DNA from: Microterricola viridarii
GTDB lineage: Bacteria > Actinomycetota > Actinomycetes > Actinomycetales > Microbacteriaceae
Length of the DNA: 64,000 bases
Assembly (NCBI RefSeq): GCF_001542775.1
Contig: NZ_CP014145.1
Coordinates: 1,736,001 to 1,800,000 of the forward strand
Direction: 5' to 3'
The notes below the pieces were generated by a model that did no database searches, was not told the DNA's origin, and worked only from the letters and a program-made list of their open reading frames with translations. Below, one piece after another: positions 36,406 through 59,012 of the stretch. Within the stretch, counting starts at the first letter, position 1; the number at the start of each line of letters is the position of its first letter. A program made the translations under genes and the position numbers.

Positions 36406-39231
36406 ATGCCGAACGAAACCGACATGACCAGGGCAGCCGATGACGCGTTCCTGCAGGACGCCGCGATCGTCGCGGCCCGGTTAGGCGTCGATCTGGAGAC
36501 CGGCCTGTCGGACGCGGAGGCCGCCCGCCGGCTCGCCGCCGACGGCCCGAACGAGCTGCGCGGCACACCGCCCGTCCCGATGTGGCGCAAGGTCCTGGCG
36601 CAGTTCCAAGACCCGCTGATCTACCTGCTGCTCGCCGCCGTGGTGGTCTCTCTCGTGGCCTGGTTCGTCGAGGGCGCCCACGGCGCGCCCGTCGACGCCA
36701 TCGTGATCGCCGCCATCGTCATCCTGAACGCGATTCTCGGCTACACCCAGGAGGCGAAGGCCGCGGATGCCGTCGCCGCCCTCAGCAAGATGACCGCCGC
36801 GACATCCACCGTGCTGCGCGGTGGCGAGCGCAAGAGCGTGCCGTCCAGCGAGCTGGTGCGCGGCGACGTGCTGGTGCTCGGCGAGGGCGACGCCGTCGGG
36901 GCGGATGCCCGGCTGTTCTTCGCCAGCGCGCTGCGCGTGCAGGAGGCGTCGCTGACCGGCGAGAGTGCCGCGGTCATCAAGAGCCCGGCCACGCTGGCGG
37001 CCCCCGCACCGCTCGGCGACCGCACCGACATGGTCTTCAAAGGCACCGCGGTGGCGCAGGGCGTCGGCCGCGCCATCGTCACCGAGGTCGCCATGGCGAC
37101 CGAGATGGGCGCGATCGCTGAGATGCTCGACGCGACCGTCGAAGACCCGACGCCGCTGCAGAACGAGATCAAGCTGATCAGCAAGGCGCTCGGCATCATC
37201 GTCGTGATCGTCGCGCTGGTGGTGATGATCACCGTCATCCTGATCCAGGGCATCACGGACCCGGCCGATCTCGTGGTCGTGCTGCTGCTCGGTGTCTCCC
37301 TCGCCGTGGCCGCGGTACCGGAGGGCCTGCCCGCGATCCTCTCGGTGATCCTGGCGATCGGCGTGCAGCGGATGGCCAAGCGCAACGCGGTCGTGAAGAA
37401 GCTCAGCTCGGTGGAGGCGCTCGGCTCCGCCTCGGTGATCTGCACCGACAAAACGGGCACGCTGACCCGGAATGAGATGACCATCGAACGGGTCGTCACC
37501 GCCTCGGGCCAGGCCGAGGTCACTGGCGTCGGGTACCGCCCGGAGGGCGCGGTGTACGGCGAGGACGGCCAGCTCTCCGGCGCACAGCACTTCGAGGTGC
37601 AGCTGGTGCTCGGCGCGGGAACACTCGCCAACGACGCCCAACTCACCGAGCACGATGGCGAATGGCAGATCCAGGGCGACCCGACCGAGGCTGCTTTCCT
37701 CGTGGCCGCGCGCAAGCTGGACGGCACCGCCAGTCGGTTGGACCGGTTCGAGCGGCGCGCGGAGATCCCGTTCACCTCGGAACGCAAGATGATGTCGACG
37801 CTGCACCAGGAGCGGCCGGACGGTGCCCACGTGCTGTTCAGCAAGGGCGCCCCCGACGTGCTGCTGGAGCGCTGCACCCGGCTGCAGGTGGGCGAGACGA
37901 CGGTGCCGCTCACCGACGAGCTGCGCCGGCGGGCACAGGATGACGTGCAGGCGCTGTCCGCACAGGCCTTCCGCACCCTGGGCGTGGCCTATCGCACGGT
38001 GGATGCCGTCGACCCGGCCGCCGAGGTCGACCCGTCGCTCGAGCAGGAGCTCATCTACGTGGGTGTCGTCGGGATCATCGACCCCCCGCGGGTCGAGGCC
38101 GCGGATGCCATCGCCGAGGCGCACCGGGCCGGCATCCGCGTCATCATGATCACCGGCGATCACCCGGCCACCGCCGTGCGGATCGCTGCCGACCTCGGCA
38201 TCGTCGAGCCGTCGGCCCGTGCGCTCACCGGCGCCGAGCTCGACACGCTGGACCCCGAGCAGCTGCGGGCCGTCACCCGCGAGGTGTCGGTGTACGCCCG
38301 GGTCTCGCCCGAGCACAAGCTGCGCCTCGTCGACGCACTGCAGTCGGATGGGCAGATTGTGTCGATGACGGGCGACGGCGTGAACGACGCCCCAGCGCTG
38401 AAGTCCGCCGATATCGGCGTCGCGATGGGCATCACCGGCACCGAGGTGACGAAGGAGGCGGCGCGGATGATCCTCGCCGACGACAACTTCGCCACCATCA
38501 TCGCGGCCGTCCGGCAGGGCCGGGTGATCTTCGACAACATCAGGAAGTTCCTGCGCTACCTGCTCTCCTCCAATGTCGGCGAGGTGCTCACCGTGTTCCT
38601 CGGCGTCGTCTTCGCTGGGCTGATCGGTCTGAACGACGCGAGCAACGAGGGGCTCGTGCTGCCGCTGCTGGCCACCCAGATCCTGTGGATCAACCTGATC
38701 ACCGACTCCACCCCGGCGCTCGCGATGGGCGTCGACCCCGAGGTGGACGACGTGATGGCCAGACGCCCACGCAAACTCACCGACAGCGCGATCGACGGGC
38801 GCATGTGGGGCGGCATCCTCTCTGTCGGTCTGGTGATGGCGCTGGTGACGCTGTTCGGCATCGACATGTTCCTGCCCGGCGGCCTCGTCGAGGGCAGCGA
38901 CAGCCTCGAGGTCGCCCGCACGGTCGGCTTCACCACGCTCGTCTTCGCCCAGTTGTTCAACGCGTTCAACGCCCGCTCCGAGACGAGCAGCGCGTTCCGC
39001 AAGCTGTTCTCGAACAAGTGGCTGTGGGGCTCTGTCGCGCTGGGCGTGCTGTTGCAGATCGCCGTCGTCGAACTCCCGTTCCTGCAGGTGGCCTTCGGCA
39101 CGGCCTCCCTGGACCTGGCCCACTGGGGCGCCTGCGTGGCGCTCGGATCCGTCGTGCTCTGGTACGACGAGATCCGCAAGATCATCCTGCGGGCGGTCGG
39201 CAGGCGGCACTCGGGAGAGTCGGCGCGTTAG
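36406..39231 (+). CDS. Calcium-type cation-transporting P-type ATPase
   Basis: A 941-residue P2-type ATPase with the SERCA/PMR1 layout. Cation_ATPase_N (about 10-80), actuator loop with LTGESAAV (about 181-188), TM4 with PEGLP (305-309), phosphorylation site DKTGTLTRNE (Asp 348), nucleotide domain with MITGDHP, and hinge TGDGVNDAPALK. TM5 has SSNVGEV and TM6 NLITDSTPALAMG (Asn 763, Thr, Asp), all residues used by SERCA to bind calcium. So Ca2+ efflux is the best guess; Mn2+ is possible. GTG codons lie upstream (36334, 36397) but ATG 36406 has GGAAG at a sensible distance. Overlaps the island's serine hydrolase tail to tail by 4 bases. Confidence 0.9.
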   Translation: MPNETDMTRAADDAFLQDAAIVAARLGVDLETGLSDAEAARRLAADGPNELRGTPPVPMWRKVLAQFQDPLIYLLLAAVVVSLVAWFVEGAHGAPVDAIVIAAIVILNAILGYTQEAKAADAVAALSKMTAATSTVLRGGERKSVPSSELVRGDVLVLGEGDAVGADARLFFASALRVQEASLTGESAAVIKSPATLAAPAPLGDRTDMVFKGTAVAQGVGRAIVTEVAMATEMGAIAEMLDATVEDPTPLQNEIKLISKALGIIVVIVALVVMITVILIQGITDPADLVVVLLLGVSLAVAAVPEGLPAILSVILAIGVQRMAKRNAVVKKLSSVEALGSASVICTDKTGTLTRNEMTIERVVTASGQAEVTGVGYRPEGAVYGEDGQLSGAQHFEVQLVLGAGTLANDAQLTEHDGEWQIQGDPTEAAFLVAARKLDGTASRLDRFERRAEIPFTSERKMMSTLHQERPDGAHVLFSKGAPDVLLERCTRLQVGETTVPLTDELRRRAQDDVQALSAQAFRTLGVAYRTVDAVDPAAEVDPSLEQELIYVGVVGIIDPPRVEAADAIAEAHRAGIRVIMITGDHPATAVRIAADLGIVEPSARALTGAELDTLDPEQLRAVTREVSVYARVSPEHKLRLVDALQSDGQIVSMTGDGVNDAPALKSADIGVAMGITGTEVTKEAARMILADDNFATIIAAVRQGRVIFDNIRKFLRYLLSSNVGEVLTVFLGVVFAGLIGLNDASNEGLVLPLLATQILWINLITDSTPALAMGVDPEVDDVMARRPRKLTDSAIDGRMWGGILSVGLVMALVTLFGIDMFLPGGLVEGSDSLEVARTVGFTTLVFAQLFNAFNARSETSSAFRKLFSNKWLWGSVALGVLLQIAVVELPFLQVAFGTASLDLAHWGACVALGSVVLWYDEIRKIILRAVGRRHSGESAR

Positions 39232-40748
39232 TCGGCCGCTGTGATATCGGCGGCCGTGATGTCGGGGGCCGCGATCTCGAGGGCCGTGATGTCGATGGCC
39301 TGCACGAGGGGCGTCTTGAGACCGATCACCTGGATCTCACAGAGCAGGGTGCCCCTCTCGCACTGGATGCCCCAGCTCAGTGCGCTGCCGTTCGCGCCGT
39401 TGCGGGTGCGGTCGCCCAGCGGCGCCTGGACTGTTGCGATCGCTCCGAGCGTCTCCAGCAGCTCGGCCACCCGCCGCTTCCGGATGTCGGCAGGCAGGTC
39501 GAGCAGTACGTTGTCGGCGAAGACGGCGGCGATCGTGTCGAGCGGCTCGTCCGCACGGAGTGCCGCATCGATCGTCGCCGCGTGCTCGAGGACTTCCGGC
39601 CACGGCTGCGCCAGGTCCGCCCCCACGCCCAGCCCGGCGAGCACGGCCGGGAGGCAGCGGGAGGCGAGTCGCTCGGCACCGAACTCATCGGAATTCCCGA
39701 ACACGACCACGCCCAGACCTGTCTGAGCGTGCCACCGCATGTGTGACGAGAATCCGGGGAGGCCGCCCGAGTGTTGCACGATGCGGCCATGGCGGCGATC
39801 GTGTTCGACCACGAGCCCCATGCCGTAGCCCTGTGCACTGAGGTCTTTGTCCGTGCGGCACGCATCAATCGGGAAAACGGTGTGCACCCGCTGCAGCTCC
39901 CGTCTGCTGGCCGCCGCGAGCACATCGCTGTGCGTCGGGGCCTCGCCGAAGGCCGAGGCGAGGAAGGAAGCCCAGGCGGCGACATCATCGAGCGTGCTGA
40001 ACAGCGCGCCGATGCAGGCGAGCGCGCCGGAGCCCACGTAGGGCTCCTCCGCGAAGATCGTCCCGCCGTCAAAGGTGCGATAACCCCGCGCGAGCGCCTC
40101 GGCCTCCAGATAGTCGGACGCCCGATATCTCGTGTTTACCAGGCCGAGCGGTTCGAGAAAGCGGCGTGCCACCTCGTGCTCGATCGTTCGCCCGGTGACG
40201 GCCTCGATCGCCCGACCGACGAGTGACATTCCGAGGTTGGAGTACTGGTAGCGCTCGCCGGGTTCCGCCGTGAGGCGGAAGCCATCGCTCGCAAGCAGTG
40301 CGATCTCCTCGCGCGAGGCGCCCAGCATCCTGTCGCCCCAGGCGTTGTCCTCCGGCATCCCGGAGCAATTGCTGAGGAGCTGACGCAGCGTGACCTCTGC
40401 CTCGCTGCCATCGAAGAGGAAGCGCGCTCCGGGAACGTACTCAGCGATCGCTCGATCAAGATCGAGTAGGCCGTCGTCTCGCAGGCCAAGCGCCGTCGCC
40501 GCCAGGAAGCTCTTTGACATCGAGGCGATCCTGAAGACGGTGTCGCGCTCGGTCGCGACCCCGTTGCGTCGAGGTTCGCCGACGCCGCGCCAGGCGATCA
40601 GACCGTTCCGGTCAAAGACCGCGGCGAGTGCGGCCGGCGCGGTGCGCAGATCGTGGGCGCTGAAGGCCGCAGCCAGCGCGCTCTCGGCCACGCGCACGGT
40701 CTCAGCGCGGGGAGAGTCGAGCCTCTGTTCCGCGTGCTGTGCGGTCAC
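39228..40748 (-). CDS. Class C beta-lactamase/D-aminopeptidase-like serine hydrolase
   Basis: A 506-residue penicillin-recognising serine hydrolase: SMSK with nucleophile Ser 76, YSN at 169-171, and HSGG (near 330) in place of KTG. This is the pattern of class C beta-lactamases, DD-peptidases and D-aminopeptidases. No signal peptide is present, so it is cytosolic and is unlikely to be a secreted beta-lactamase. The C-terminus (about 400-506) is an extra domain ending in a short repeat of the form DITAxEIA/DITAAD. GTG 40748 overlaps the amidotransferase stop. It is the last gene of the leftward island operon, so hydrolysis of D-residue peptides is the favoured role. Confidence 0.87.
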   Translation of the reverse strand: MTAQHAEQRLDSPRAETVRVAESALAAAFSAHDLRTAPAALAAVFDRNGLIAWRGVGEPRRNGVATERDTVFRIASMSKSFLAATALGLRDDGLLDLDRAIAEYVPGARFLFDGSEAEVTLRQLLSNCSGMPEDNAWGDRMLGASREEIALLASDGFRLTAEPGERYQYSNLGMSLVGRAIEAVTGRTIEHEVARRFLEPLGLVNTRYRASDYLEAEALARGYRTFDGGTIFAEEPYVGSGALACIGALFSTLDDVAAWASFLASAFGEAPTHSDVLAAASRRELQRVHTVFPIDACRTDKDLSAQGYGMGLVVEHDRRHGRIVQHSGGLPGFSSHMRWHAQTGLGVVVFGNSDEFGAERLASRCLPAVLAGLGVGADLAQPWPEVLEHAATIDAALRADEPLDTIAAVFADNVLLDLPADIRKRRVAELLETLGAIATVQAPLGDRTRNGANGSALSWGIQCERGTLLCEIQVIGLKTPLVQAIDITALEIAAPDITAADITAAD

Positions 40749-41467
40749 AGGGTGACCAGGGCGCGCGCGCGAACCTCGTCCCCGAAGGCCTCGATCAGCA
40801 GCCTGCTGGCGCGCGTGTTCTCCTCGTCGGCTGCATCGGCCGTGGCGATGAGCGCCGCGACGTCGTACCCCTCGCCGCGGAGGGCGGCGTCGTCCCAGGT
40901 CGCAAGGTTTGCGGCCGCCGCCTCGGGGTGGAACTGCACCCCGCGCACGTGCGAGCCGATCACGAAGGCCTGGTTCCGCACCGCGTCGCTACTGGCCAAC
41001 AGCACCGCACCGGTCGGCAGCCGGGTGATCTGGTCCTCATGGTTCTCGATCATCGGGGCGCACGTGCCGAGCGCAGACAGCACAGGGTCGTTCCTGCCCT
41101 CCGGCGTGGCACGGATGACGGTGCTGCCGCGCTCCTTCTCGCCGAAGCAGGCCCGCACCTCCCCGCCCGCGACGTCGGCGATGATCTGGGCGCCGAGGCA
41201 GATGCCGAGCGTCGGCAGATCCAGCTCGATGGCCTGCTCGGTGAGCCGGCGCTCGTCGTGCAACCAGGCGGCCTTCTCGTAGTCGTCCGGCATGAGGCCG
41301 CCGCCGAGGAGCACGAGACCGTCGAAACCCTCAAGCGAGTCGGGAAGGCCGTCTTCTCCGAGCCTCTCCACGACGTCAATGCCCTGCGCGGCGAGCCACG
41401 CGCCGAGGCGCCTGGGCCCGGAGCTCGCCGAGTTCACCACTGCGAGTACGCGGGGAGAAGCTGCCAC
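40745..41467 (-). CDS. Class I glutamine amidotransferase-like protein
   Basis: A 240-residue GATase1 domain with the nucleophile cysteine in LGICLGAQIIADVAGG and the catalytic histidine-glutamate in VQFHPEAAA. It stands alone, with no synthetase domain attached, like PuuD-type gamma-glutamyl hydrolases and other solo GATases that cleave gamma-glutamyl amides. In this operon it could release glutamine-type side chains or gamma-glutamyl peptides. GTG 41467 follows the dipeptidase stop by 2 bases. Substrate unproven. Confidence 0.85.
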   Translation of the reverse strand: MAASPRVLAVVNSASSGPRRLGAWLAAQGIDVVERLGEDGLPDSLEGFDGLVLLGGGLMPDDYEKAAWLHDERRLTEQAIELDLPTLGICLGAQIIADVAGGEVRACFGEKERGSTVIRATPEGRNDPVLSALGTCAPMIENHEDQITRLPTGAVLLASSDAVRNQAFVIGSHVRGVQFHPEAAAANLATWDDAALRGEGYDVAALIATADAADEENTRASRLLIEAFGDEVRARALVTL

Positions 41468-41469: not shown

Positions 41470-42579
41470 TCAACCTGCCTTCTGAATCGTCGTGTCGATC
41501 GCCGGCACGATGGCCAATGCTTCCGGCTCCCCGGCGTGACCGCTGAGGAAGCGGGTGTAGTCGGCATCGGATGCCCCGAGCACACGGAGCACATTCTCTG
41601 AGCCGAGGCCCCGCAGCTCGCCATCCGACCAACCGCGCCGCTCCAACTCGGCAAACAACGCGGGATAGCCGGCGACATCGCACAGGCCGAACGGCATCGC
41701 ATCGGTGCCGTCGTAGTCGGCGCCGAGGCCCACGGCGTGCACGCCCGCCACATCGCGGATGTGATCGAGGTGGTCGGCGACCTCTGCAACGCCGACAGGC
41801 GGCGGTTCACCTTCCTCTCCGGCTTCGACCCACAGGCGGCGCTCCTCCGAGAGGAAGGAGGGCACGAAGGCGAGCATCACGACGCCGTCGCCGTCGCCGA
41901 TGGCCCGCAGCACGTCATCCGGAACGTTGCGCGCGTGATTGCAGCGCTCCCAGGCACCAGAATGGCTGACCAGGACGGGTCGTCTGCTCTCGTCGAGGGC
42001 ATCGCGCATGGTGGCCGGGGCGACGTGCGCCAGGTCGACGAGCATCCCGATCCGGTTCATCTCCCGCACGACCCCTCGACCGAATGCGGTCAGCCCGTTG
42101 TGCCGCGCCGTGTCGGTCGCCGAATCCGCCCAGTCGGTGGTGCGCGACCAGGTCAGAGTCATATAGCGGGCGCCGAGGCGCGCGTACTGGCGGAGCGTTG
42201 CCAGCGAGTTGTTCAGCTGCTCACCGCCCTCGACGCCGATCAGCGAGGCGATTCGGCCGTCGGCCATCGCCGCGCGCACCTCGGCCGCGGTACGCGTCAG
42301 GCGCAGCTGCTCGGGATACGCGGCGACGAGTCGCTGCACGAAGTCGATCTGTTCAAGCGTCGCGACCACCTGCTCGGCGCCCCGCAGCTCTGGATCGACC
42401 CAGACCGACCAGAACTGGCCGGCCACGCCGCCGGCTGCGAGCCGGGGCAGATCGGTGTGCAGCGCCGGGGCACCGCCGTCGAGCCCAGCGACCGAGTAGC
42501 CTCGGGTTTCGCGGCAGGCCCAGGCCAGATCGTTGTGCCCGTCGATCACCGGATAGCGCGGTGCTGCCGAGGCGCTCAT
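41470..42579 (-). CDS. Membrane-dipeptidase-like (M19) zinc dipeptidase
   Basis: A 369-residue M19 dipeptidase. Metal ligands: HxD in IDGHNDLAWA (His 15, Asp 17), glutamate in LIGVEGGEQL, histidines in DLAHVAP and VSHSGAW, and aspartate in GLGADYDGTD. Family members hydrolyse L,L- and L,D-dipeptides, and some accept a D-residue at the C-terminal side. No signal peptide, so cytosolic. ATG 42579 overlaps the racemase stop by 4 bases. It fits the breakdown of imported dipeptides. Confidence 0.93.
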   Translation of the reverse strand: MSASAAPRYPVIDGHNDLAWACRETRGYSVAGLDGGAPALHTDLPRLAAGGVAGQFWSVWVDPELRGAEQVVATLEQIDFVQRLVAAYPEQLRLTRTAAEVRAAMADGRIASLIGVEGGEQLNNSLATLRQYARLGARYMTLTWSRTTDWADSATDTARHNGLTAFGRGVVREMNRIGMLVDLAHVAPATMRDALDESRRPVLVSHSGAWERCNHARNVPDDVLRAIGDGDGVVMLAFVPSFLSEERRLWVEAGEEGEPPPVGVAEVADHLDHIRDVAGVHAVGLGADYDGTDAMPFGLCDVAGYPALFAELERRGWSDGELRGLGSENVLRVLGASDADYTRFLSGHAGEPEALAIVPAIDTTIQKAG

Positions 42580-43718
42580 CGCTCTGCTCCGGCGAGCTCG
42601 GCGACGGAGGCCGAGTCGAAGACCCGGATAGCCTCGTGCGCAATGCGATCGGTGTCGACCACGAAGCCGAGGCCGGGTGTGCTCGGTACCGTGACCCGGC
42701 CGCCGCGCGCCCGGATCGGCGGGTCGATGATGTCGTGCTCGTAGTACTTGTCTGAACCGGAGACGTCGGAGGGGAAGAGGAAGTTGGGCAGGGAGGAGAT
42801 CGCGAGGTTGATCGCGCGCCCGACACCGAATTCGTGCATGCCTCCGCACCACACGGGCACCCCGGCATTCGCGGCGATGTCGTGCGCGCGTCGCGCTTGA
42901 CTGAGGCCGCCCATCCTGGAGACCTTGATGTTGAGCACCCGCCCGGCGTCCAGACGCAGCATCGTTTCCAGGTCCGCGACGGAGACAATGGATTCGTCGA
43001 GGCAGACCGGCGTCTCGATCCGCTGCTGCAGCTCGGCATGCGCCAGGAAGTCGCGCTGCTCAAACGGCTGCTCGATCATGGTCAGGCCGAAGCCGTCCAG
43101 CGCACGGAAGACGGCGAGGGAGTCCGTGTCGTTGGGGTACGCGCCGTTGGCATCGACGTGCAGTTCGACGGTGGGGAACGCCGCGCGGACTGCGGCGACG
43201 GCCGCGACATCCCAGCCGGGGGCGATCTTGAGCTTCACCCGGCCATAGCCCGCCTGCAGCTGCGCGCTGACCTGCTCGAGCAACGCGTCGATGTTGGCCT
43301 CGATGCCGAGGGAGACGCCCGTGGCCACGTCACTGCGGGTGCCGCCGAGGGCGGCCGCGAGCGACACTCCCTGCCGCCGGGCGTGCAGGTCCCACGCCGC
43401 GCCGGAGAATCCGGCCTTGGCGAACTCGTGGCCGCGCACCTTCGCCCACCCTGCCTCGAGCGTTTCCGGGAGTTCCCAGCCCGCGCCGAGCACCCGCGGC
43501 ACCAGATAGCGGGTCGCGATGTACCAGGCCGTCTCTGTGGTCTCTGCGCAGTAGAACGGATCGCTCGGTGACGCGATCTCGCCCCAGCCGATGGCACCGT
43601 CGGCATCCGTCAGCTCGACCAGGACATGTTCGATGCCCGACTTCCTGTGCGAACTCGTCTCAAAGCTGTGCAGGAGCGGGAGTCGGAAGTCGAAGAGCCT
43701 GACGCGCTCAATTCTCAC
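42576..43718 (-). CDS. N-succinylamino acid racemase/OSBS-family enolase enzyme
   Basis: A 380-residue muconate-lactonising-enzyme-like protein close to NSAR/OSBS (N-acylamino acid racemase). It has catalytic lysines in VKLKIAPG (162, 164) and IKVSRMGG (265), metal ligands Asp 189 (HVDANGAY), Glu 216 (IEQPF) and Asp 241 (LDESI), and the NSAR block CGGMHEFGVGRAIN followed by SLPNF and SDKYYEHDI. The usual GGMLETG reads GGMHEFG here, a specificity-loop change. No menaquinone genes are nearby, so racemising N-acyl amino acids is favoured over o-succinylbenzoate synthesis. GTG 43718 overlaps the SIS gene stop. It shares its promoter with the GNAT and faces the M20 deacylase gene. Confidence 0.88.
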   Translation of the reverse strand: MRIERVRLFDFRLPLLHSFETSSHRKSGIEHVLVELTDADGAIGWGEIASPSDPFYCAETTETAWYIATRYLVPRVLGAGWELPETLEAGWAKVRGHEFAKAGFSGAAWDLHARRQGVSLAAALGGTRSDVATGVSLGIEANIDALLEQVSAQLQAGYGRVKLKIAPGWDVAAVAAVRAAFPTVELHVDANGAYPNDTDSLAVFRALDGFGLTMIEQPFEQRDFLAHAELQQRIETPVCLDESIVSVADLETMLRLDAGRVLNIKVSRMGGLSQARRAHDIAANAGVPVWCGGMHEFGVGRAINLAISSLPNFLFPSDVSGSDKYYEHDIIDPPIRARGGRVTVPSTPGLGFVVDTDRIAHEAIRVFDSASVAELAGAER

Positions 43719-44425
43719 GACGGCTCCTCTGGTTGAACGTTCTCTGGGTGATGGCCCTCTGTGTGGTAGAGCCCGAGTTCCGCCGCGTAGCGGTCGCGGC
43801 CGGCGAGCCGGCGCCTGGCGCCCTTGGCGCTGGCCGTGGTGAGCGCGCTGAGCAGGTGGCAGACGGCGGCCACGGCGGTGGGCGAGTCTGCATAGGAGGC
43901 CGAACCCGTGTGCACCCGGATCAGCGCGCTGGCGAGCCCGGCGAGCGGGGCCTGTTCGCTGTCGGTGATGACGACGAGTTGGCCGCCCGCCTCGTGGAAG
44001 AGGCGACCGAGCCGGATTGTCTCCGCCCGGTAGCGGCGCATCGAGAAGACGATGAGCACATCGCTTGAGCGCACATCGGTGAGCACGGTGAGCGGCGACA
44101 GGCCACGGCCGTCGATCACGAACACATTCGACAGCGTGGTCGAGAGGTCGGCGTTCAGCAGCTGGGCGTAGGCGGCGCCCTTTCCCTCGCCGCCGATGTA
44201 GCGCCGGCGTGCGCCCAGAATGAGCGCGGCGGCCCGTGGAATCTCACCGCTCGCGCTGAGTTCTTCCAGCGTGAGCGCGAGCGAGCGCATCTCACTCTCG
44301 ATGACCCGGGCCTGGAGGGTCTCGGCTGAGAAGTTCGCCCGCAATCGTTCACCGTAGCGATCCTGCGGGGACTCGAGCGAGCGAGCCCGCTCGCTCTCGG
44401 TGATGCTCGCCGCACGATCGATCAT
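43715..44425 (-). CDS. SIS-domain protein, RpiR-like but without helix-turn-helix
   Basis: A 236-residue sugar-isomerase-fold protein. The SIS domain runs about 60-205 (ALILGARRRYIGGEGKGAAY, SDVLIVFSMRRYRAETI, LVVITDSEQAPL). RpiR/MurR regulators have about 75 residues of helix-turn-helix in front of this domain; only about 45 residues with no such motif are present, and the upstream sequence belongs to the GNAT gene. It may be a ligand sensor working with a separate DNA-binding protein, or an isomerase. ATGA overlap with the GNAT gene. A role as the regulator of the AGATACG sites is therefore doubtful. Confidence 0.75.
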   Translation of the reverse strand: MIDRAASITESERARSLESPQDRYGERLRANFSAETLQARVIESEMRSLALTLEELSASGEIPRAAALILGARRRYIGGEGKGAAYAQLLNADLSTTLSNVFVIDGRGLSPLTVLTDVRSSDVLIVFSMRRYRAETIRLGRLFHEAGGQLVVITDSEQAPLAGLASALIRVHTGSASYADSPTAVAAVCHLLSALTTASAKGARRRLAGRDRYAAELGLYHTEGHHPENVQPEEPS

Positions 44426-52241: not shown

Positions 52242-53191
52242 GCGCGCACCGCACCAGCTATCTCACCACCGCCCCCCTCGTGGCCGGCGACACCGTCGCC
52301 ATCATCGCCCCCTCCGGACCGTGCACGCGGGCCGGGCTGCGGCGCGCTGTCGGCTACTACGAGTCGTGGGGCCTCAAAGTCGTCGTCGGCGAGCACGTGC
52401 TCGACCGGCACTCGCGCTCTCGCCACCTCGCCGGAGAGGACGACGCGCGACGGGCCGACCTGGTTGCCGCCTGGACCAACCCGGACGTGGATGCGGTGGC
52501 CTGCGTGCGCGGCGGCTACGGCGCAATGCGCCTGCTCGACGGCATCGATTGGGGCGCGATGCAGGACGGCATGCTGCGTCGCGACGGCCGCCCGACGCTG
52601 CTCACCGGCTCCTCCGACATCACCGCGCTGCACGAGGCGTTCCGGGTGCAGCTCGACGTGGCCGGCCTGTTCTGCCCGATGCCGAGCAATGATGTCTTCC
52701 GCGAATCTGAGTTCGTCAGGGCCGACGTGCACCGTTGGCTATTCGAGCCGTGGGCCGGGCGGGACCTGATCGGACCCAAGACCGAGGTCTTGGTTCCCGG
52801 CAGCACCGCCGGCCGGTTCAGCGGCGGCAATCTGAGCCTCGTTGCCGCGGCGCTCGGCGCGGCGGAGGCCGCGCAGAACCCCGGCGGCATCCTCTTCCTG
52901 GAGGACATCGATGAAGAGGTCTACCGGCTCGACAATCTGCTGGTGCAGTTGCAGCGGGCCGGGCGGCTCTCGAGCTCCTCCGGCATTGTGCTCGGATCGT
53001 GGCTCCACTGCGGTGATGCGGATGAGATCCAAGACCTCCTGGCCGAGTACCTCGGCGATCTCGACGTGCCCGTGCTCTGGGAGCAGGGTTTCGGGCATGA
53101 CCCGCACGCGCTCAGTGTTCCGATGAACATCGACGGCGTGCTCGACGCGAGCGGCCAGACACCGCGGCTGACCGTCTCGGGGCCGGCGTGA
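52238..53191 (+). CDS. S66-family LD-carboxypeptidase
   Basis: A 317-residue LD-carboxypeptidase (LdcA/MccF family): CVRGGYGAMRLLDGID, nucleophile Ser 126 in TGSSDITALH, glutamate in FLEDIDEEVYRLD and histidine in GFGHDPHALSVPM form the Ser-Glu-His triad. LdcA cuts the L-D bond before D-alanine in murein tetrapeptides; MccF variants cut peptide-nucleotides. No signal peptide, so it acts on imported peptides, matching B. subtilis YkfA beside a dpp transporter. GTG start overlaps the ATPase stop. Confidence 0.93.
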   Translation: MSAHRTSYLTTAPLVAGDTVAIIAPSGPCTRAGLRRAVGYYESWGLKVVVGEHVLDRHSRSRHLAGEDDARRADLVAAWTNPDVDAVACVRGGYGAMRLLDGIDWGAMQDGMLRRDGRPTLLTGSSDITALHEAFRVQLDVAGLFCPMPSNDVFRESEFVRADVHRWLFEPWAGRDLIGPKTEVLVPGSTAGRFSGGNLSLVAAALGAAEAAQNPGGILFLEDIDEEVYRLDNLLVQLQRAGRLSSSSGIVLGSWLHCGDADEIQDLLAEYLGDLDVPVLWEQGFGHDPHALSVPMNIDGVLDASGQTPRLTVSGPA

Positions 53192-54024
53192 TGAGCGAGT
53201 ACTGGACGCTGCCGACGCTCGATGACCGTGCGATCTGGAGCGTGCGAGTGCTCGACGCCGCGAGCGGCGCGCCCCTGCTCGAGCACAACCAGGACACCCA
53301 GTGTGAGACGGCCAGCATCGGCAAGATCTTCCTGCTCATCGAGGTCGCGCGGCGCATTGAGGACGGCACCCTGCAGCTCGGCCAACGGGTCCAGGTTCCG
53401 GCCGAGTTCGCCGTCGCCGACTCCGGCATCCTGTATCGGATGCGCGATCAGCTGCTCTGCGTCGATGACTTGGCGCTGCTCGTCGGTGCGTTCAGCGACA
53501 ACCTCGCCACCAACACCCTGCTGCATCTGTGCGGTCTCGAGACGGTGCGCATGGTGGCGCCGGGGCTCGGGTACCGGCACACCGCACTGCACGACTATCT
53601 GCGCGACGAACGCACGCCGGATCTGCCGTGGACGCCATCGTTCGGCACCGCCCGCGAACTGGCCGATGTGATGCTCAGGCTGGCTGCCGGTGACGTGCAC
53701 TCCCCCGCGGTCAGCGCGCGGGTGCTCGATTGGCTCGCCGCGAACGCGGACACCTCGCTGCTCGCCGACTCGTTCCTGGTCGACCCGCTCGCCCATGTCG
53801 ACGCCGATTATCAAGGCATCGTGCTGCGGCACAAGACGGGGTCGACCAATTTCGCGCGGATCGATGTCGGCCATGTGTCCGGACCGGCGGGGTCCGTTGC
53901 CTATGCGGTCGCGGCGAACTGGAAGAATCAGTCGGCCGATCTGCGCGCCCCCGTGATCGATGCGATGCGCGCCATCGGAGAACAGATCCGCGGCCACATC
54001 ACCGGCCGGCCTCGAGAGGAATGA
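53188..54024 (+). CDS. Cytosolic class A beta-lactamase-like hydrolase, copy 1
   Basis: A 278-residue beta-lactamase2-type serine hydrolase with SIGK (Ser 43, Lys 46), SDN (103-105) and KTGS (near 225), the three motifs of penicillin-recognising enzymes. No signal peptide precedes the catalytic serine at residue 43, so it is a compact cytosolic enzyme, unlike secreted beta-lactamases. GTG 53188 overlaps the S66 stop; ATG 53191 is the next codon. It probably cleaves D-containing peptides or amides. Paralogue of the next gene. Confidence 0.9.
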   Translation: MMSEYWTLPTLDDRAIWSVRVLDAASGAPLLEHNQDTQCETASIGKIFLLIEVARRIEDGTLQLGQRVQVPAEFAVADSGILYRMRDQLLCVDDLALLVGAFSDNLATNTLLHLCGLETVRMVAPGLGYRHTALHDYLRDERTPDLPWTPSFGTARELADVMLRLAAGDVHSPAVSARVLDWLAANADTSLLADSFLVDPLAHVDADYQGIVLRHKTGSTNFARIDVGHVSGPAGSVAYAVAANWKNQSADLRAPVIDAMRAIGEQIRGHITGRPREE

Positions 54025-54833
54025 CTCAGATGACCCCGCGCTTCTACTCCGAGCACGACACGCAGTGGTCGGTGCTCGCCGTCGACATCGACTCCGGAGA
54101 GGAACTCGTCCGGCTGGACGCCGAGCGCGTGCTCGACACCGCCAGCGTCGGCAAGATCTTCCTGCTGCACCGTCTGCTCAGCGAGGCCGACGCGGGGACC
54201 CGCTCGCTCGAGGAGCAGGTCACGCGCCGTCCCGTCGAGTGGATGGACAATTCCGGCCTCTGGTACCTGCTGCAGGCGGACACCCTGTCGCTCTATGACG
54301 CGGCCGCCCTCGTCGGCGCGGTGAGCGACAATGCCGCCACCAACACGCTCTGCCGCGTGATCGGCCTCCCCGTTGTGCAGGAGCACACGCGCGCGCTCGG
54401 CTACACCGAGTCGGCGCTCGACGATGTTGTGCGCTGGCCGCTGCCGCCCGGTGCCCCGCGGACGCTCTCGCACGCCAACGCGGAGGAGCTGGTGCGCTTC
54501 GTGCAGCGCACCGCCCGCGCCGAAGACCTCTCGCCGGCTTCCGCGGACACCCTGCAACGCTGGCTCGGTGCCGGCATGGACCTCTCCATGACGGCATCCG
54601 CCTTCGGCCTGGACCCGCTCGCCCACTACTACTTCGACCGCGACATCTGGCTCTGGAACAAGACCGGCACGATCTCCACCGTGCGCGCGGATGTCGGCCT
54701 GGTGATGAGTGGCGAACGGCGCATCGCCTACGCCGTCCTGGCGAATTGGCGCTCGGGCGCGGATGCCCGCGATGGCGTGCTCGCCTCGATGCGCGAGGTC
54801 GGCGAGGTCATCCGCGCGGCCCTGCGCGGCTGA
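54021..54833 (+). CDS. Cytosolic class A beta-lactamase-like hydrolase, copy 2
   Basis: A 270-residue paralogue of the preceding gene with the same layout: SVGK (Ser 42, Lys 45), SDN (102-104), and KTGT in LWNKTGTIS. No signal peptide. It diverges in the rest of the sequence, which argues for a different substrate rather than recent duplication. ATG 54021 overlaps the stop of copy 1 (ATGA) with GAGAGGA ahead. Last gene of the rightward operon, ahead of a strong hairpin. Confidence 0.9.
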   Translation: MTQMTPRFYSEHDTQWSVLAVDIDSGEELVRLDAERVLDTASVGKIFLLHRLLSEADAGTRSLEEQVTRRPVEWMDNSGLWYLLQADTLSLYDAAALVGAVSDNAATNTLCRVIGLPVVQEHTRALGYTESALDDVVRWPLPPGAPRTLSHANAEELVRFVQRTARAEDLSPASADTLQRWLGAGMDLSMTASAFGLDPLAHYYFDRDIWLWNKTGTISTVRADVGLVMSGERRIAYAVLANWRSGADARDGVLASMREVGEVIRAALRG

Positions 54834-54893: not shown

Positions 54894-56252
54894 TTAAGCG
54901 AGCGCACCCATCGGGTCCCACGGGTCGAGCACGATCGGAACGTGCGTGAGCGCCGCGCGCAGCTCGGCCGGGAGCCGGTCCTTGCGCACGACGACCTCGA
55001 AGACGTACTCATCGAACCAGGAGTCGTCCATCGTGCAGAAGCCCTTGTCGAACTTCTCTGTTCCCCAGCTGTTCTCGACCCGCCAGCGCCGGGGCGCACC
55101 GTCCACGAGATCGACACCGGTGAAGAGCATCGCGTGCGTCATCGCCGAGTCGCCGTAGCGGACACGCTCCTCTTTCGTCGTGCTGAGATCGACTCCGTAG
55201 ACCGCCGAGTAGTCGATCAGGTCGGCGGCCCAGATGCCCTGGGACGCTTCCATCTGCGGGTCGACGTCGCAGCCGAACCAGACCGGCTCCCCCGCCACGA
55301 TGGCCTGCGCCGCGATGCGCTTCATCGTGTCGGCGTCGGTGTTCAGGTACAGCACCGGGTCGCCACCGACGACGTTGCCGAGATGCGCAACCGTGAGCGC
55401 GCGCCCCTTCGGGTGCTCCGCCCGAGGATCATCGACCAGGCAGACGTAGTCGCCCAGTGCGATCTCGGTGTACTCGTCGAGAAACTCGCGCGGGGTGAGC
55501 GTGCCGCCGTCGTGGAAGGCGCCGTCGTCGTCGTTCCACCGCCAGTCGAAGCTCTGCGGTGGCACCCCGAGATGGATGGTCAGAACCCGGTGGGTGTCGC
55601 GCAGGATCGCCTGCTTGAGCTCGTCGAGAGCTCCGTCGTGCGCCCCAGCGGCGGCGGCGTCGCGCAGCCGCCTGGCGCCCTTGCGCAACAGGGTGCGCAG
55701 CGAGGCGTTCATCCTGGACGTGTTCGATGACGACTCCGTCTCCGGCATCAGTGATTTCGGCACGACACCGTGCTTCTCGAACACCGCGACCTCCATGTTC
55801 CACTGGCCGCCGTCGTCGAGCACGTTGCCGAGCAGGAACATCGGAATCCGCTCGTCGGCGGCAGAGCCGGCGACGGCGATCATGTCCTCGAGGAAGAAGT
55901 TGGCGCGCTCGAGCTTGTCCCAGTACATGGCGTGGTTCTGGCTGAACTCGAAGTTCTTCACGCCGAGCTTCTTCCTGGCATCCGCGCGCAGGAGGTTGAG
56001 CGCGGCGAACAACCAGCACCGGCCCGACCGCTTCTGGTCGGCTGCATCCCAGTTGTCCAGCCGGTTCGACATACTCAGCTGCACGCCGAGCAACCGCCCC
56101 CGATCGACGGCGACCTCGTCGACCGAGGTGCGCGTCACGGCATTCATCGCGAGCCTCGCTGCGGCGTCCCCCGCGAAATCCGCGTGCAGGGCGCGCAACC
56201 AATCCGGCGTGAGAGTCCCCCTAATACGCTTCGTATCTTCAGTGATAGTCAT
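54894..56252 (-). CDS. pepC: Aminopeptidase C (bleomycin hydrolase family)
   Basis: A 452-residue C1B cysteine peptidase: catalytic glutamine and cysteine in QKRSGRCWLFAAL (Gln 73, Cys 79), then histidine in SAMTHAMLFTGV and asparagine in WRVENSWG. The C-terminal residues (GALA) reach into the active site in this family and define aminopeptidase activity. Cytosolic hexamer in homologues. ATG 56252; codons 6-10 fall inside an operator-like palindrome. Distinct promoter with two palindromes upstream, so it is part of the same proposed regulon. Trims short peptides. Confidence 0.93.
   Translation of the reverse strand: MTITEDTKRIRGTLTPDWLRALHADFAGDAAARLAMNAVTRTSVDEVAVDRGRLLGVQLSMSNRLDNWDAADQKRSGRCWLFAALNLLRADARKKLGVKNFEFSQNHAMYWDKLERANFFLEDMIAVAGSAADERIPMFLLGNVLDDGGQWNMEVAVFEKHGVVPKSLMPETESSSNTSRMNASLRTLLRKGARRLRDAAAAGAHDGALDELKQAILRDTHRVLTIHLGVPPQSFDWRWNDDDGAFHDGGTLTPREFLDEYTEIALGDYVCLVDDPRAEHPKGRALTVAHLGNVVGGDPVLYLNTDADTMKRIAAQAIVAGEPVWFGCDVDPQMEASQGIWAADLIDYSAVYGVDLSTTKEERVRYGDSAMTHAMLFTGVDLVDGAPRRWRVENSWGTEKFDKGFCTMDDSWFDEYVFEVVVRKDRLPAELRAALTHVPIVLDPWDPMGALA
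56222..56238. promoter_or_regulatory. AGATACG-type operator inside the pepC start
   Basis: TAATACGCTTCGTATCT matches 12 of 14 defined positions with a perfect 13-bp palindrome at its core. It covers codons 5-10 of pepC. Confidence 0.6.
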
Positions 56253-56286: not shown

Positions 56287-56303
56287 AGATACAAAACGTA
56301 TCT
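56287..56303. promoter_or_regulatory. AGATACG-type operator upstream of pepC
   Basis: AGATACAAAACGTATCT is the best copy of the palindrome, 13 of 14 defined positions. It lies 35 bases upstream of the pepC start and overlaps the end of the DmpA gene. Its centre is 65 bases (about six turns) from the copy inside pepC. Confidence 0.7.
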
Positions 56304-57384
56304 ATTGAACGCCGCCCCGGCGTAGACGCGCGACGACCTGGTCAATCGGGATTCCCCTGGCGGTGCGGCCCTGGAAGCCCTGCCGCGTCTCGGCCTGCAG
56401 GATCGAGTTCAACAGCGCCTCCTCCGTCGCTTCCATCGTGGCCAGGAACGCAGCAGAGAGCAGCCCGTCGTCTGGGGCCCGGTCGTCGCCGACCGAGAAG
56501 GCGATCGCGTAGTCACCGCTGCCCTCGGCGTAGTCGGAGCCGGTTGCCCGGAGCGCGAAGATCGCCCTGTTCGCGATCCGACCGAGCTGACGGGCGTCAA
56601 GCGGGGCGTCAGTGGCGACCACGATCATGCACGAGTTCCCGACGCCGACGGCCGGCTCCTCGGCGAGCAGGTCGCTGGCCGGCATCGAGACGCCGTCGAT
56701 GCGCAGCGTGCCGGAATAGTTGCTCTGCACGATCACGCCGAGCGTGTACTGCGCTTCGCCGATCGAGACGACCCGGGATGACGTGCCGATTCCGCCCTTG
56801 TAGCCCAGGGCCACCGTGCCGGCACCCGCACCGACACCGCCCTCAGCCACCGGGCCGGACGCGGCGGATTGGAGCGCCGCCCGCACCATCTCGTCACTGA
56901 CGGGGCGACTGCGGATGTCGGAGAGGTAGCCGTCGTTGGTCTCGCCGACGACCGGGTTCAGCGTCGTGGTCGTCTCGTGGCCGGGCTGCTCGAGCAGATA
57001 GCCGAGCAGCGCATCCGCGGCCTTGAAGGCCGAGAGCGTGCTGGTGAGCAGCACCGGCGTCTCGATCACGCCGAGTTCCTGCAACTGTGTTGCGCCGATC
57101 AGCTTGCCGTAGCCGTTGCCGACGGCCAGCCCGGCCGGCAGCCTGCGTCGCGAGGCCGTCAGGGCGTCGGGCACGATCGCGGTGACACCCGTGCTCAGGG
57201 TGTCGGTGAGAAGCGTGCAGTGGCCGATGCGCACCCCGGGCACATCGGTGATCGCGTTGCCCGGCCCGCGCGGCGCCGAGCCGGACGGGACGCCCAGATC
57301 ACCGAGCCTCGGTCGCGTTGTTGCGGCGGGTCGCGTTGTTGGTGCGTCTGGGCGCGCCGCGCCGAGCAGTTCGCTGTCGCTCAT
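56302..57384 (-). CDS. P1-family (DmpA/BapA) aminopeptidase
   Basis: A 360-residue S58 self-processing N-terminal-nucleophile peptidase. Autocleavage would occur before Ser 251 in GVGNSCMIVVATDAPLDARQ, giving two subunits, as in DmpA. NAITDVPGVRIGHCTLL and VNGYGKLIGATQL-type segments (VGNGYGKLIG) belong to the family. DmpA acts as an L-aminopeptidase and D-esterase/D-amidase, and BapA cleaves beta-amino acids. The N-terminal 35 residues (TTRPAATTRPRL) are a low-complexity extension. Spaced 35 bases from the amidohydrolase gene, so probably co-transcribed. Confidence 0.9.
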   Translation of the reverse strand: MSDSELLGAARPDAPTTRPAATTRPRLGDLGVPSGSAPRGPGNAITDVPGVRIGHCTLLTDTLSTGVTAIVPDALTASRRRLPAGLAVGNGYGKLIGATQLQELGVIETPVLLTSTLSAFKAADALLGYLLEQPGHETTTTLNPVVGETNDGYLSDIRSRPVSDEMVRAALQSAASGPVAEGGVGAGAGTVALGYKGGIGTSSRVVSIGEAQYTLGVIVQSNYSGTLRIDGVSMPASDLLAEEPAVGVGNSCMIVVATDAPLDARQLGRIANRAIFALRATGSDYAEGSGDYAIAFSVGDDRAPDDGLLSAAFLATMEATEEALLNSILQAETRQGFQGRTARGIPIDQVVARLRRGGVQ

Positions 57385-57419: not shown

Positions 57420-59012
57420 TCAGCGGTTCGAGGCGTAGACGACGTCGCCGTCAACGATGGTGGCCGCAGCGGAGATGGTGGCGAGGGCCGCAGGGTCGAC
57501 GGCGTGCGGGTCAGCGTCGAGAGCAACGAAGTCGGCGAAGTTTCCGGCCGCGATACGGCCGGTCACGGTCTCGAGGCCTGCGGCATACGCCGCCCCGGCG
57601 GAATAGAGTCCGAGCGCCTCATCCACGCCGAGCCGTTCGTCCGGCTCGAATCCCCCGACGGGTTCGGATGCCCGGTTCTGCCGTGTCACCGCGGCATGCA
57701 CGCCGTACATCGGGTTCGCGGGCTCGATCGGCGCGTCGGATCCGAAGGCAACGCGCGCGCCTGAATTGAGCAGGGAACGCCAGGCGTAGTTGGCCAGCGC
57801 ACGGTCGCCGAGGCGGCGCCGAGCGAGCCGGAAGTCGGTCGTGCAGTGCGTCGGCTGCAGGGAGGCGACAACGCCCAGCTCGGCGAAGCGCGCAATGTCG
57901 TCGCGGGCGATGTGCTGGGCATGCTCGATCCGGTTGCGCAGCCCCGCCGCCCGCGTGATGGCGACGGCCGCGGCATAGGCATCCAACACGTTCCGATTCG
58001 CCCTGTCGCCGATCGCGTGGGTGGCGACGGCGATCCCCCTGGAGTTCGCCCGCACGACCAGGGCCGCGAGCTCCTCGACGGGGAGCACCTCGACACCGTG
58101 ATTGCCGGGATCATCGGCGAAGTCGCTGAGCATGTGGGCACTGTGTGAGCCCAATGCCCCATCGGAGAAGAGCTTGACCGGTCCGGTCGTGATCCATCGA
58201 TCGCCGCTGCCCGTTCGCCAGCCCTCGTCGATGGCACGGTCGAGGTCCTCGTGCGGGATTCCCTTGTGCACCCGCAGCTTGAGGCGGCCCGCAGCACGCA
58301 TCGACTCGAAAGAGAGTCGCGTCGACTCGCCGTCGAGATCGGTCAGGTGCGTGAGCCCCATCGCCAGTAGTCGCTCCTGGGCACGCTCAAGCAGCGCGGG
58401 GAGCGCATCATTCAGCTCGCGTTCGGCGAGTTCGATCACGGCATCTGCGGCGCTCTCGCGAAGCACCCCGCTGGGTTCGCGACCGTCGGCGTCGCGCAGA
58501 ATGAGCCCACCGGCCGGGTCGGGGCTGGCGGCGTCGATACCGACCCGACGCAGGCCCAGGCTGTTCACCCAGATCGAGTGCCCGTCGAGGCTGGACAGCG
58601 CGACGGGGCGATCTGCGCACACCCGATCGAGGTCGTGTCTGCTCGGCAGGCCGCCCGGCCAGCCGTTGGCATCCCAGTACCCACCGGAGACCCAGCCGGT
58701 GCCCGGGCGCTCGGTGAGGTAGCCGCGGAGGGTGTCGAGCGCTTCCTGCTTGTGCCGCGCAGCGCGCAGGTCGACCGCGTCCATGTCACGGGCAACGCTC
58801 CCGGTATGGATGTGCGCGTCGTGGAACCCCGCGACGATGGCGGCGCCCGGCAAGGCGACCTCCCGCGCTGACGGTGCCGCGTCGCGGAGCGCTCGCCGCT
58901 CGCCGACGGCGGTGATCGTGCCCCGCTTCACGAGGATCGCGTCCGCGCGTTGTGCCCCCGGCGCGGTGCCCGGTAGGAGAATCCGGGGGTGGGTGTACAG
59001 CGTTGTGACCAT
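57420..59012 (-). CDS. Amidohydrolase-family (Amidohydro_3) metal enzyme
   Basis: A 530-residue metal-dependent hydrolase of the YtcJ/NfdA group. HDAHIHTG with the HxH pair, PVKLFSDGALGSHSA (metal-bridging region), ATHAIGDRANRNVLDA, and EHAQHIARDD and FGSDAPIEP. The group includes N-substituted formamide deformylases and other amide hydrolases. ATG or GTG start at 59012. Its place beside DmpA and PepC suggests deacylation of N-acyl or formyl amines. Substrate unproven. Confidence 0.88.
   Translation of the reverse strand: MVTTLYTHPRILLPGTAPGAQRADAILVKRGTITAVGERRALRDAAPSAREVALPGAAIVAGFHDAHIHTGSVARDMDAVDLRAARHKQEALDTLRGYLTERPGTGWVSGGYWDANGWPGGLPSRHDLDRVCADRPVALSSLDGHSIWVNSLGLRRVGIDAASPDPAGGLILRDADGREPSGVLRESAADAVIELAERELNDALPALLERAQERLLAMGLTHLTDLDGESTRLSFESMRAAGRLKLRVHKGIPHEDLDRAIDEGWRTGSGDRWITTGPVKLFSDGALGSHSAHMLSDFADDPGNHGVEVLPVEELAALVVRANSRGIAVATHAIGDRANRNVLDAYAAAVAITRAAGLRNRIEHAQHIARDDIARFAELGVVASLQPTHCTTDFRLARRRLGDRALANYAWRSLLNSGARVAFGSDAPIEPANPMYGVHAAVTRQNRASEPVGGFEPDERLGVDEALGLYSAGAAYAAGLETVTGRIAAGNFADFVALDADPHAVDPAALATISAAATIVDGDVVYASNR

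Follow-up and report, generated by a model that had tools for sequence, protein, structure and literature searches.

A putative D-peptide and D-amino acid scavenging regulon in Microterricola viridarii, with an operator shared among actinomycete relatives

Known systems and layout of the island

The N-succinylamino acid racemase (NSAR) pathway of the Geobacillus kaustophilus type carries out an irreversible conversion of D- to L-amino acids, and members of the NSAR/OSBS family are known as promiscuous enzymes. Another system of interest is found in Bacillus subtilis, where YkfA-D are located next to dppB-E (PMC2954226). In the present study, we analysed an island in a window of 64,000 nucleotides from Microterricola viridarii (NZ_CP014145.1). 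This island has GNAT, NSAR and M20 in one cluster and the expected NSAR motifs in common with the Geobacillus-type pathway, but it adds a SIS gene in the operon and a conserved operator, and in Microbacteriaceae a peptide importer and a set of peptidases are joined to it. Compared with dpp-ykf, the island has the same adjacent peptide ABC transporter, S66 LD-carboxypeptidase and enolase-superfamily epimerase, but NSAR stands in the place of YkfB (L-Ala-D/L-Glu epimerase), and GNAT, M20, S12, M19 and GATase are added. We believe that the block is probably a scavenging regulon for D-peptides and D-amino acids (probability about 0.72).

Families were assigned by Pfam/NCBIfam. All the genes named in a sequence-only reading of this DNA were present at 39228-59012 with the families it gave; its list had omitted the SIS-domain gene. 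The features, in positions of the window, are as follows:

39228..40748, minus: S12 (class C-like) serine hydrolase; SMSK, YSN and HSG motifs; closest solved match by sequence is alkaline D-peptidase
40745..41467, minus: GAT, solo class-I glutamine amidotransferase-like protein; GICLG and HPE found
41470..42579, minus: M19 dipeptidase, renal-dipeptidase type
42576..43718, minus: NSAR (NSAR/OSBS family); KLK, DAN, IEQP, DES and NIKVSR motifs
43715..44425, minus: SIS-domain protein, RpiR-type without helix-turn-helix (HTH); member of the module core
44422..45267, minus: GNAT-fold N-acyltransferase, predicted D-amino acid N-succinyltransferase
45358..46494, plus: M20 metallohydrolase, predicted N-succinyl-L-amino acid desuccinylase
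46716..48557, plus: SBP, family-5 peptide-binding protein; signal-like hydrophobic N-terminus, C-terminal transmembrane anchor by eye
48625..49668, plus: DppB-type permease
49665..50591, plus: DppC-type permease
50595..52241, plus: DppDF, fused DppD-DppF ATPase
52238..53191, plus: S66 LD-carboxypeptidase, LdcA type
53188..54024, plus: Bla1, class A-like serine hydrolase 1; SIGK, SDN and KTG, without ExxLN
54021..54833, plus: Bla2, class A-like serine hydrolase 2; SVGK, SDN and KTG, without ExxLN
54894..56252, minus: PepC (C1-like) aminopeptidase; counted in the regulon through its operator pair
56302..57384, minus: S58/DmpA aminopeptidase, peripheral; without operator
57420..59012, minus: AmH, Amidohydro_3 protein, peripheral; without operator

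By coordinates, overlaps of 4 bp join S12/GAT, M19/NSAR, NSAR/SIS, SIS/GNAT, DppB/DppC, DppDF/S66, S66/Bla1 and Bla1/Bla2. The expected catalytic motifs were found in the nine hydrolases checked (S12, Bla1, Bla2, GATase, S66, M20, PepC, DmpA and M19), with one exception. Bla1 and Bla2 carry the SxxK, SDN and KTG of class A beta-lactamases, but ExxLN, the omega-loop motif for deacylation in those enzymes, is absent from both, and they score 49.6 and 41 bits with the beta-lactamase model (cut-off 200). Among the island proteins, a strongly hydrophobic N-terminal stretch was seen by a hydropathy window, which is not a signal-peptide predictor, in SBP and the two permeases only; this agrees with the earlier statement that the hydrolases lack signal peptides. 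The S66 protein scored up to 96 bits as LdcA-like and up to 55 bits as MccF-like, and a role as MccF-type immunity peptidase was rejected.

The D-to-L enzymes and their conservation among relatives

The NSAR protein scored 276 bits, above the cut-off, with TIGR01928, and 67 and 64 bits with L-Ala-D/L-Glu epimerase models. Its matches among solved structures are N-acylamino acid racemases (E down to 3e-84), and the Lys/Lys base and metal-ligand motifs expected of the enolase fold (KLK, DAN, IEQP, DES and NIK) are in place. TIGR01928 is named for o-succinylbenzoate synthase, and together with the promiscuity of the family this might suggest a menaquinone enzyme beside unrelated peptide metabolism. 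We regard that reading as scarcely credible, since the same genome has a dedicated menC at 2918007 (464 bits, cut-off 288), and NSAR is steadily linked with GNAT and M20; NSAR as the sole menaquinone enzyme was rejected, unless that menC is inactive. The GNAT protein has weak sequence matches to solved structures (best E 0.009), and its fold is supported by a structure model. The closest solved matches of M20 are carboxypeptidase G2, and no cut-off was reached among the 25 NCBIfam models listed. The best reading of these three proteins is an N-succinyl D-to-L route, in which both the succinyl acyl group and the direction of flux are predicted.

For the comparison with relatives, we used the best 80 loci of 124 relatives, picked through one SIS peptide pattern. 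Since this one pattern chose the loci and 21 of the 80 are from Microbacterium, the counts are not independent; 18 loci are shorter than 18 kb. The divergent order S66-DppDF-DppC-DppB-SBP-M20 and GNAT-SIS-NSAR-M19-GAT-S12 was identical in 24 of the 80 named loci (4 genera, 20 loci from Microbacterium), and the recurrence of this 12-gene order exceeds chance. The core, M20 divergent from GNAT-SIS-NSAR, was kept in 65/80 loci and 19 named genera. A lack of conserved gene order in relatives had been named earlier as a refuting condition; the order proved to be conserved in some members of the family and also outside it, though not in the four genomes of the same genus. A search for DmpA in the same-genus genomes, made without positive control, returned none.

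Around SIS, which had itself been used to choose the loci, conservation is highest for the D-to-L trio (NSAR in 76, GNAT and M20 in 74 each of the 80 loci) and not for the peptidases. In 38/80 loci, 7 of them on stretches below 15 kb, the core was present but no peptide transporter, M19, GAT or S12 was found. Two variants (G235 and G315) kept SIS, M19, GAT and the transporter, with the D-to-L trio missing. In a second NSAR branch, 3/16 loci, among them a second cluster of M. viridarii, combine the trio with an ABC transporter and an S12 hydrolase; with the M20 of the window as query, no M20 was found in the other 13.

Within 5 kb of SIS, 14/80 loci have an Amidohydro_3 gene read as D-aminoacylase-like (one representative tested). 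A DcuC-like permease lies near SIS in 10/80, and 5/80 have there a member of a family similar to D-amino acid dehydrogenase (one tested). The first two are shared with what we call actinomycete D-aminoacylase-type amidohydrolase clusters; the island core of the window differs in having no such gene, and its AmH did not match the 14 SIS-neighbouring Amidohydro_3 genes. In flanks that end at 10 kb, DmpA was near the block in 3/80 loci and AmH in 4/80 (one at 32% identity).

It is suggested that the ABC transporter would import short peptides that contain D-residues or are unusually linked, from which S66, S12, the two class A-like serine hydrolases, M19 and PepC would free amino acids in the cytosol. 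GNAT would N-succinylate the freed D-amino acids, NSAR would epimerise the N-succinyl amino acids and M20 would desuccinylate the L-form, making the D-to-L conversion effectively irreversible. The coherence of peptide import, cytosolic hydrolysis and an N-succinyl pathway, as proposed from the sequence alone, is supported by these data. No gene feature fixes D-peptides over unusual peptides in general as the substrate, for which murein or nonribosomal peptides had been put forward as a conjectural class.

Recycling of murein peptides of the dpp-ykf type, with stem peptides L-Ala-D-Glu-DAP/Lys-D-Ala as the true substrates, would account for the Dpp-type transporter adjoining an LdcA-type S66, for M19 and two penicillin-fold hydrolases, and for the likeness to the YkfA-D and dppB-E neighbourhood (PMC2954226). 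We consider it unlikely as the main function, with the enolase-fold protein scoring as NSAR and not YkfB, no match to NlpC/P60 (the family of YkfC, a gamma-D-Glu-diamino acid endopeptidase) among the island proteins scanned, and so many loci keeping the core without the peptide genes. The likeness to dpp-ykf claimed earlier is therefore only partial, with the Dpp transporter and LD-carboxypeptidase present, and full membership was rejected on the YkfB comparison; murein peptides may be one substrate among several. Another possibility is that the block serves to detoxify or scavenge nonribosomal peptides and other unusual amides and that the conversion of D-amino acids is a side branch, which would suit the breadth of hydrolases (S12, S66, class A-like, DmpA and PepC). 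It is very improbable in view of the LdcA-like S66, the rarity of DmpA near the block and its lack of an operator, and the trio being better conserved than the peptidases.

The operator and the SIS-domain protein

A palindromic operator, ATACG-N3-CGTAT, often paired, was found at 67 of the 74 testable module promoters; at the internal genes M19, GAT, S12 and DppB it was found in 0/34, 0/34, 0/32 and 0/31. The 80 loci contain 115 sites matching at least 9/10, compared with 4 in a reversed-sequence control. In the window, the sites (no strand assigned) are as follows:

45266..45278: operator ATACGTTTCCTAT, 9/10, overlapping the GNAT start
45343..45355: operator ATACGTTTCATAA, 8/10, beside the M20 start, 77 bp from ATACGTTTCCTAT
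46534..46546: operator ATACGTTACGCAT, 9/10, upstream of SBP
46611..46623: operator ATACGAAACAAAT, 8/10, 77 bp from ATACGTTACGCAT
56224..56236: operator ATACGCTTCGTAT, 10/10, within the opening codons of PepC; no other site in the genome matches perfectly
56289..56301: operator ATACAAAACGTAT, 9/10, upstream of PepC, 65 bp from ATACGCTTCGTAT

These sites mark GNAT, M20, SBP and PepC, with none at DmpA or the amidohydrolase, so that the last 2.7 kb are peripheral. Of the third of the three operons described earlier, only PepC has the operator in the window. In the relatives, operators were present at SBP promoters in 18/30 loci and at PepC promoters in 1/3. The pattern is not enriched overall in the M. 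viridarii genome (11 places with at most one mismatch, control 12); 4 of the 11 fall in the island, and the case within this genome rests on position. Among 14 genomes searched for perfect sites, 7 had any, and three (G078, G002 and G114) had one away from the module. Paired operators are commonly spaced by about 5, 6, 7 or 8 helical turns, and further peaks at 143-145 bp (12 pairs) and 322-323 bp (9 pairs) are not whole turns. The shared site suggests that the operator controls the module genes, which would then respond together.

The SIS gene, between GNAT and NSAR, is closest to RpiR regulators but the helix-turn-helix is missing. Its product shares the SIS domain with RpiR/MurR regulators, and its nearest folds are 3sho (top by both sequence and fold), RccR, then MurR among others. 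The SIS domain was detected in all 15 proteins scanned and HTH_6 in none, other matches being weak (one HTH_psq at E 0.17); in the window, the overlap with GNAT leaves no upstream room for an HTH. ASAKGAxRR, a motif on which the scan of relatives had itself selected, is invariant in 41 sequences, and basic stretches (SPxxRxGxR and ASAKGARRR) are conserved. The protein is apparently a former RpiR regulator that has lost its HTH. Five distant SIS matches in relatives, inspected in full, resembled, by eye, ordinary RpiR proteins with an HTH-like N-terminus. The SIS tree, weakly resolved and with long RpiR branches, was excluded from the counts. One genome (G517) with an NSAR cluster and no short SIS gene encodes a 340-aa SIS protein about 2 kb upstream of SBP; since Pfam detects no HTH in its N-terminal extension of about 110 aa or elsewhere and its branch is long, no conclusion on an RpiR ancestor is drawn from it.

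Besides the core genes, no gene family within 6 kb occurred in more than 8 genera, bar one mixed cluster that spans 12 genera and is largely noise (of its 38 members, 27 are antisense to known genes and 11 were not identified). A linked HTH regulator was rejected on this basis; with crude gene calls and few families tested by Pfam, such a regulator might have escaped notice if short or local. The SIS protein is the sole linked candidate for binding the operator.

At somewhat less than even odds, the regulator that binds the operator is encoded elsewhere in the genome, and SIS is an enzyme (sugar-phosphate isomerase or lyase) or a structural partner. The missing HTH_6 speaks for this, as do seven genomes of one genus code (g72), where SIS has an S12 gene as its neighbour and no operator was found nearby, and a similarity to HxlB-type isomerases in 15/15 SIS proteins (best 2.5e-9; 21.8 bits for the window protein, cut-off 160). 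Against it stand the lack of any other widespread family nearby, the RpiR SIS domains as nearest structures, and the phosphate loop of SIS enzymes, SxSGxT, being mostly S-x-RRY in these proteins. Furthermore, the presence of the operator tracks with that of SIS. Neither the NSAR cluster of G114 nor that of G517, both without the short SIS gene, has a site of at least 9/10, and the same holds for 16/16 NSAR loci of the other branch; where SIS is present without NSAR, the operator occurs at L189 and L191, and as 8/10 pairs in G235 and G315.

In the scavenging regulon, SIS would most likely sense a pathway intermediate and govern the operators, alone or through an unlinked DNA-binding partner. 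A bolder and rather doubtful proposal is that the SIS-only protein binds the operator DNA itself and so regulates the module: an HTH-less RpiR descendant that would read ATACG-N3-CGTAT (ATACGNNNCGTAT DNA) in a new mode through SPxxRxGxR and ASAKGARRR. It would act as a tetramer spanning two operators, and its ligand would be an N-succinyl amino acid and not a phosphosugar. In the open-access papers searched, we found no paper linking RpiR or SIS-domain regulators with D-amino acids, nor one on Microbacterium with D-amino acid, dipeptide or RpiR.

Significance of the module

Overall, the module resembles a version of the NSAR pathway that is under regulation and that, in Microbacteriaceae, is combined with the uptake of D-peptides. 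Because the operator is a short, conserved and rare sequence, the regulon can be traced in these genomes, and a single reporter would suffice to test it. These findings raise the question of how a regulator-derived SIS domain without a recognised DNA-binding fold tracks an operator so closely. The literature consulted treats NSAR enzymes mainly as biocatalysts. For many actinomycete families, the module now places the pathway in a plausible natural context: D-peptides and perhaps N-acyl-D-amino acids as inputs, a regulon, and a candidate for the sensor.

Organization of the island

In the present study, all genes that the sequence-only reading had named were found at the D-peptide/D-amino-acid island (39228..59012), and their classes were correct by family assignment and coordinates, but that list had overlooked the gene of an RpiR-like SIS-domain protein without a helix-turn-helix (SIS). 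The island is arranged as follows.

45268-45357, divergent promoter: GNAT side minus, M20 side plus
43715-44425, minus strand: SIS gene
Minus-strand arm, outward from the promoter: GNAT, SIS, NSAR (N-succinylamino acid racemase), M19 dipeptidase, GATase (class-I glutamine amidotransferase-like), S12 serine hydrolase
Plus-strand arm, outward: M20, then SBP, DppB, DppC and DppDF (peptide ABC transporter), S66 LD-carboxypeptidase, serine hydrolases Bla1 and Bla2
Beyond Bla2, minus strand: PepC, DmpA, AmH (Amidohydro_3 protein)
45266/45343 and 46534/46611: operator pairs, 77 bp each
56224/56289: operator pair, 65 bp

Strongly hydrophobic N-termini were absent from the island hydrolases, which agrees with the earlier statement that they carry no signal peptide; the SBP has a signal-like N-terminus and, judged by eye, a C-terminal membrane anchor. 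The expected motifs were present in the nine hydrolases examined, with Bla1 and Bla2 lacking ExxLN. These two class-A-like hydrolases (53188-54833), without the ExxLN loop, are likely peptidases rather than beta-lactamases. In addition, the same Microterricola viridarii genome carries a second NSAR cluster (2336000-2355900) with NSAR, GNAT, M20, a frame with S9 and S12 domains, a Dpp-type transporter and a PucR-type regulator; neither SIS nor an operator site of at least 8/10 was found there.

Conservation of the unit and its variable place

Named genomes were scanned with the SIS alignment, and the best 80 of 124 relatives were kept (23 named genera and 4 loci without genus assignment). Near SIS among these 80 we found NSAR in 76, GNAT and M20 in 74 each, M19 and GATase in 34 each, S12, S66 and SBP in 32 each, Bla2 in 24 and Bla1 in 22; the counts for AmH (4), DmpA (3) and PepC (3) are too low because the flanks stop at 10 kb. 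The core order, M20 divergent from GNAT-SIS-NSAR, was kept in 65/80 loci (from 19 named genera, plus 3 without genus assignment). In 38 loci the core genes occurred while the transporter, M19, GATase and S12 were all missing; 7 of these 38 lie on stretches shorter than 15 kb. Among the 73 loci in which a SIS frame was called, with automatic starts, GNAT and SIS overlap by exactly 4 bp in 45, and SIS and NSAR in 36; the other 7 loci gave no such frame. The coherent island proposed earlier is a real conserved unit sharing promoter sites.

The expectation that gene order would be kept in relatives held in part: the twelve-gene order occurs in 24/80 loci (20 Microbacterium, 2 Leucobacter, 1 Gordonia, 1 Pseudoclavibacter), but SIS (E<=1e-15), close NSAR and a DmpA match were each found in 0/4 same-genus genomes. 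Two of these (G001, G004) retain the left-flank ATPase, with right-flank pieces (window from 61.7 kb) about 15-26 kb away on the same contig in changed order; the site that the island occupies therefore seems to be variable. Separately, about 17.7 kb of the window (18600-36300) has no counterpart here in two same-genus genomes: its flanks are separated by 65 bp in G001 and by about 1.8 kb in G004.

Within Microbacteriaceae, SIS was detected in 26/398 genomes (E<=1e-15) and close NSAR in 18/398 (E<=1e-130), both together in 17. A class-level survey gave close NSAR in 18/394 genomes (E<=1e-100); at its loci besides G000 and G337, partly from the same genomes as the SIS scan, SIS sits between GNAT and NSAR in 15/16, G517 being the exception. 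None of the 16 loci from the other NSAR branch, whose identity is about 40-46%, had SIS. G235 and G315 lack the GNAT-NSAR-M20 trio, yet keep SIS beside the transporter and M19. In a quick tree, the SIS proteins of Gordonia amarae (L148) and Acidipropionibacterium (L159) group within Microbacteriaceae. This grouping points to a horizontal transfer of the module.

The SIS protein and the operator

RpiR regulators are described in one report as tetramers in crystals that bind DNA through an HTH and, save one, act as repressors (PMC12713135), so the composition of the island protein is striking: the SIS domain was present in 15/15 members scanned, whereas HTH_6 was found in 0/15. The protein is mostly 210-264 aa long; its predicted structure (pLDDT 88.3) is nearest to RpiR SIS domains, namely 3sho, RccR and then MurR among others. 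R73, R74, K82, R131, Y132, A198 to A203, R205 and R206 were invariant across 41 sequences, a count influenced by the homologue scan, which itself selected on ASAKGA[RG]RR. An RpiR-like gene with a weak SIS match was also seen at L028 (G012), beside what we take by eye to be a DUF1343 (NamZ-type) muramidase and a PIG-L deacetylase; a role in peptidoglycan recycling is possible for that locus.

The palindrome ATACG-N3-CGTAT (operator) was searched in the 80 loci (1,509,318 bases). Sites of at least 9/10 numbered 115 versus 4 in reversed sequences, and those of at least 8/10 numbered 299 versus 102. With a promoter scored positive for one site of at least 9, or two of at least 8 lying 50-90 bp apart, 67/74 module promoters were positive, and each of the seven misses had an 8/10 site. 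Upstream of internal genes, positives were 0/34 for M19, 0/34 for GATase, 0/32 for S12 and 0/31 for DppB. Other genes gave 1/76 for NSAR, 4/30 for S66, 6/80 for SIS and 18/30 for SBP. Perfect sites number 1, 2 and 2 in three f38 (Jiangellaceae code) genomes, one at the module each time. A second perfect operator-like site, common to two genomes with this code (L245 and L246; G584, G476), adjoins what by eye are an ArsR-like regulator and a FAD protein.

Sites of at least 9 were absent from 16/16 other-branch NSAR loci, from the island stretch of G114, which is without SIS, and from the stretch around the G517 cluster. L189 and L191 have SIS but no NSAR, and there the operator sits between the divergently oriented Bla and S66 genes. 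G235 and G315 each carry it as an 8/10 pair spaced by 76-77 bp. In seven g72 loci with SIS, no operator site was found near it. The operator is a candidate regulatory element of the module.

Spacings of sites of at least 8 cluster near whole helical turns at 53 (5), 64-65 (5), 75-77 (30) and 85-88 bp (8), and also, away from whole turns, at 143-145 (12) and 322-323 bp (9, Microbacterium only); the reversed control gave 6 pairs in total over spacings of 14-400 bp. Since the loci are related, helical phasing is a lead, not proof. In a Leucobacter genome (G398), PepC carries a comparable pair, 66 bp apart, including the sole perfect site of that genome. There and in the window one site lies within the first PepC codons, so the protein sequence may contribute to the match.

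The NSAR pathway and its possible inputs

A full GNAT-NSAR-M20 pathway is a D-to-L converter. The GNAT has a predicted GNAT fold (pLDDT 88.8) and a conserved stretch around RWTFDPxxARNxHFN, and the NSAR groups with racemases of known structure. Enzymes of this type are described as working with a lysine pair (PMC8142540) and as being combined with an L-succinylase to produce L-amino acids (PMC7431475).

Neighbors of the module in Kribbella, Actinomadura, Pseudonocardia and others include a DcuC-like permease in 10 loci (one representative tested) and, within 5 kb, an Amidohydro_3 gene in 14. We read the latter as D-aminoacylase-like, its one tested representative scoring 240 bits, below the NCBIfam cut-off of 340. 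N-acyl-D-amino acids as another input would fit these two neighbors. A C39-like peptidase family (one representative tested) occurs within 6 kb in 12 loci and in 14 overall. In five Actinomadura loci (L196, L197, L198, L200, L201), SIS lies about 4 kb from NSAR on the opposite strand with operator sites on both sides, an Amidohydro_3-family gene directly following SIS in 4/5. In Kribbella (L168, L169, L174, L175, L177, L180, L184, L190), a gamma-glutamyltransferase family gene (Pfam, one representative) lies about 3 kb from SIS.

Overall, the island is probably a new form of the NSAR pathway, joined to D-peptide uptake. The SIS protein and the operator are its unexpected features, and the sequence-only reading had missed both.
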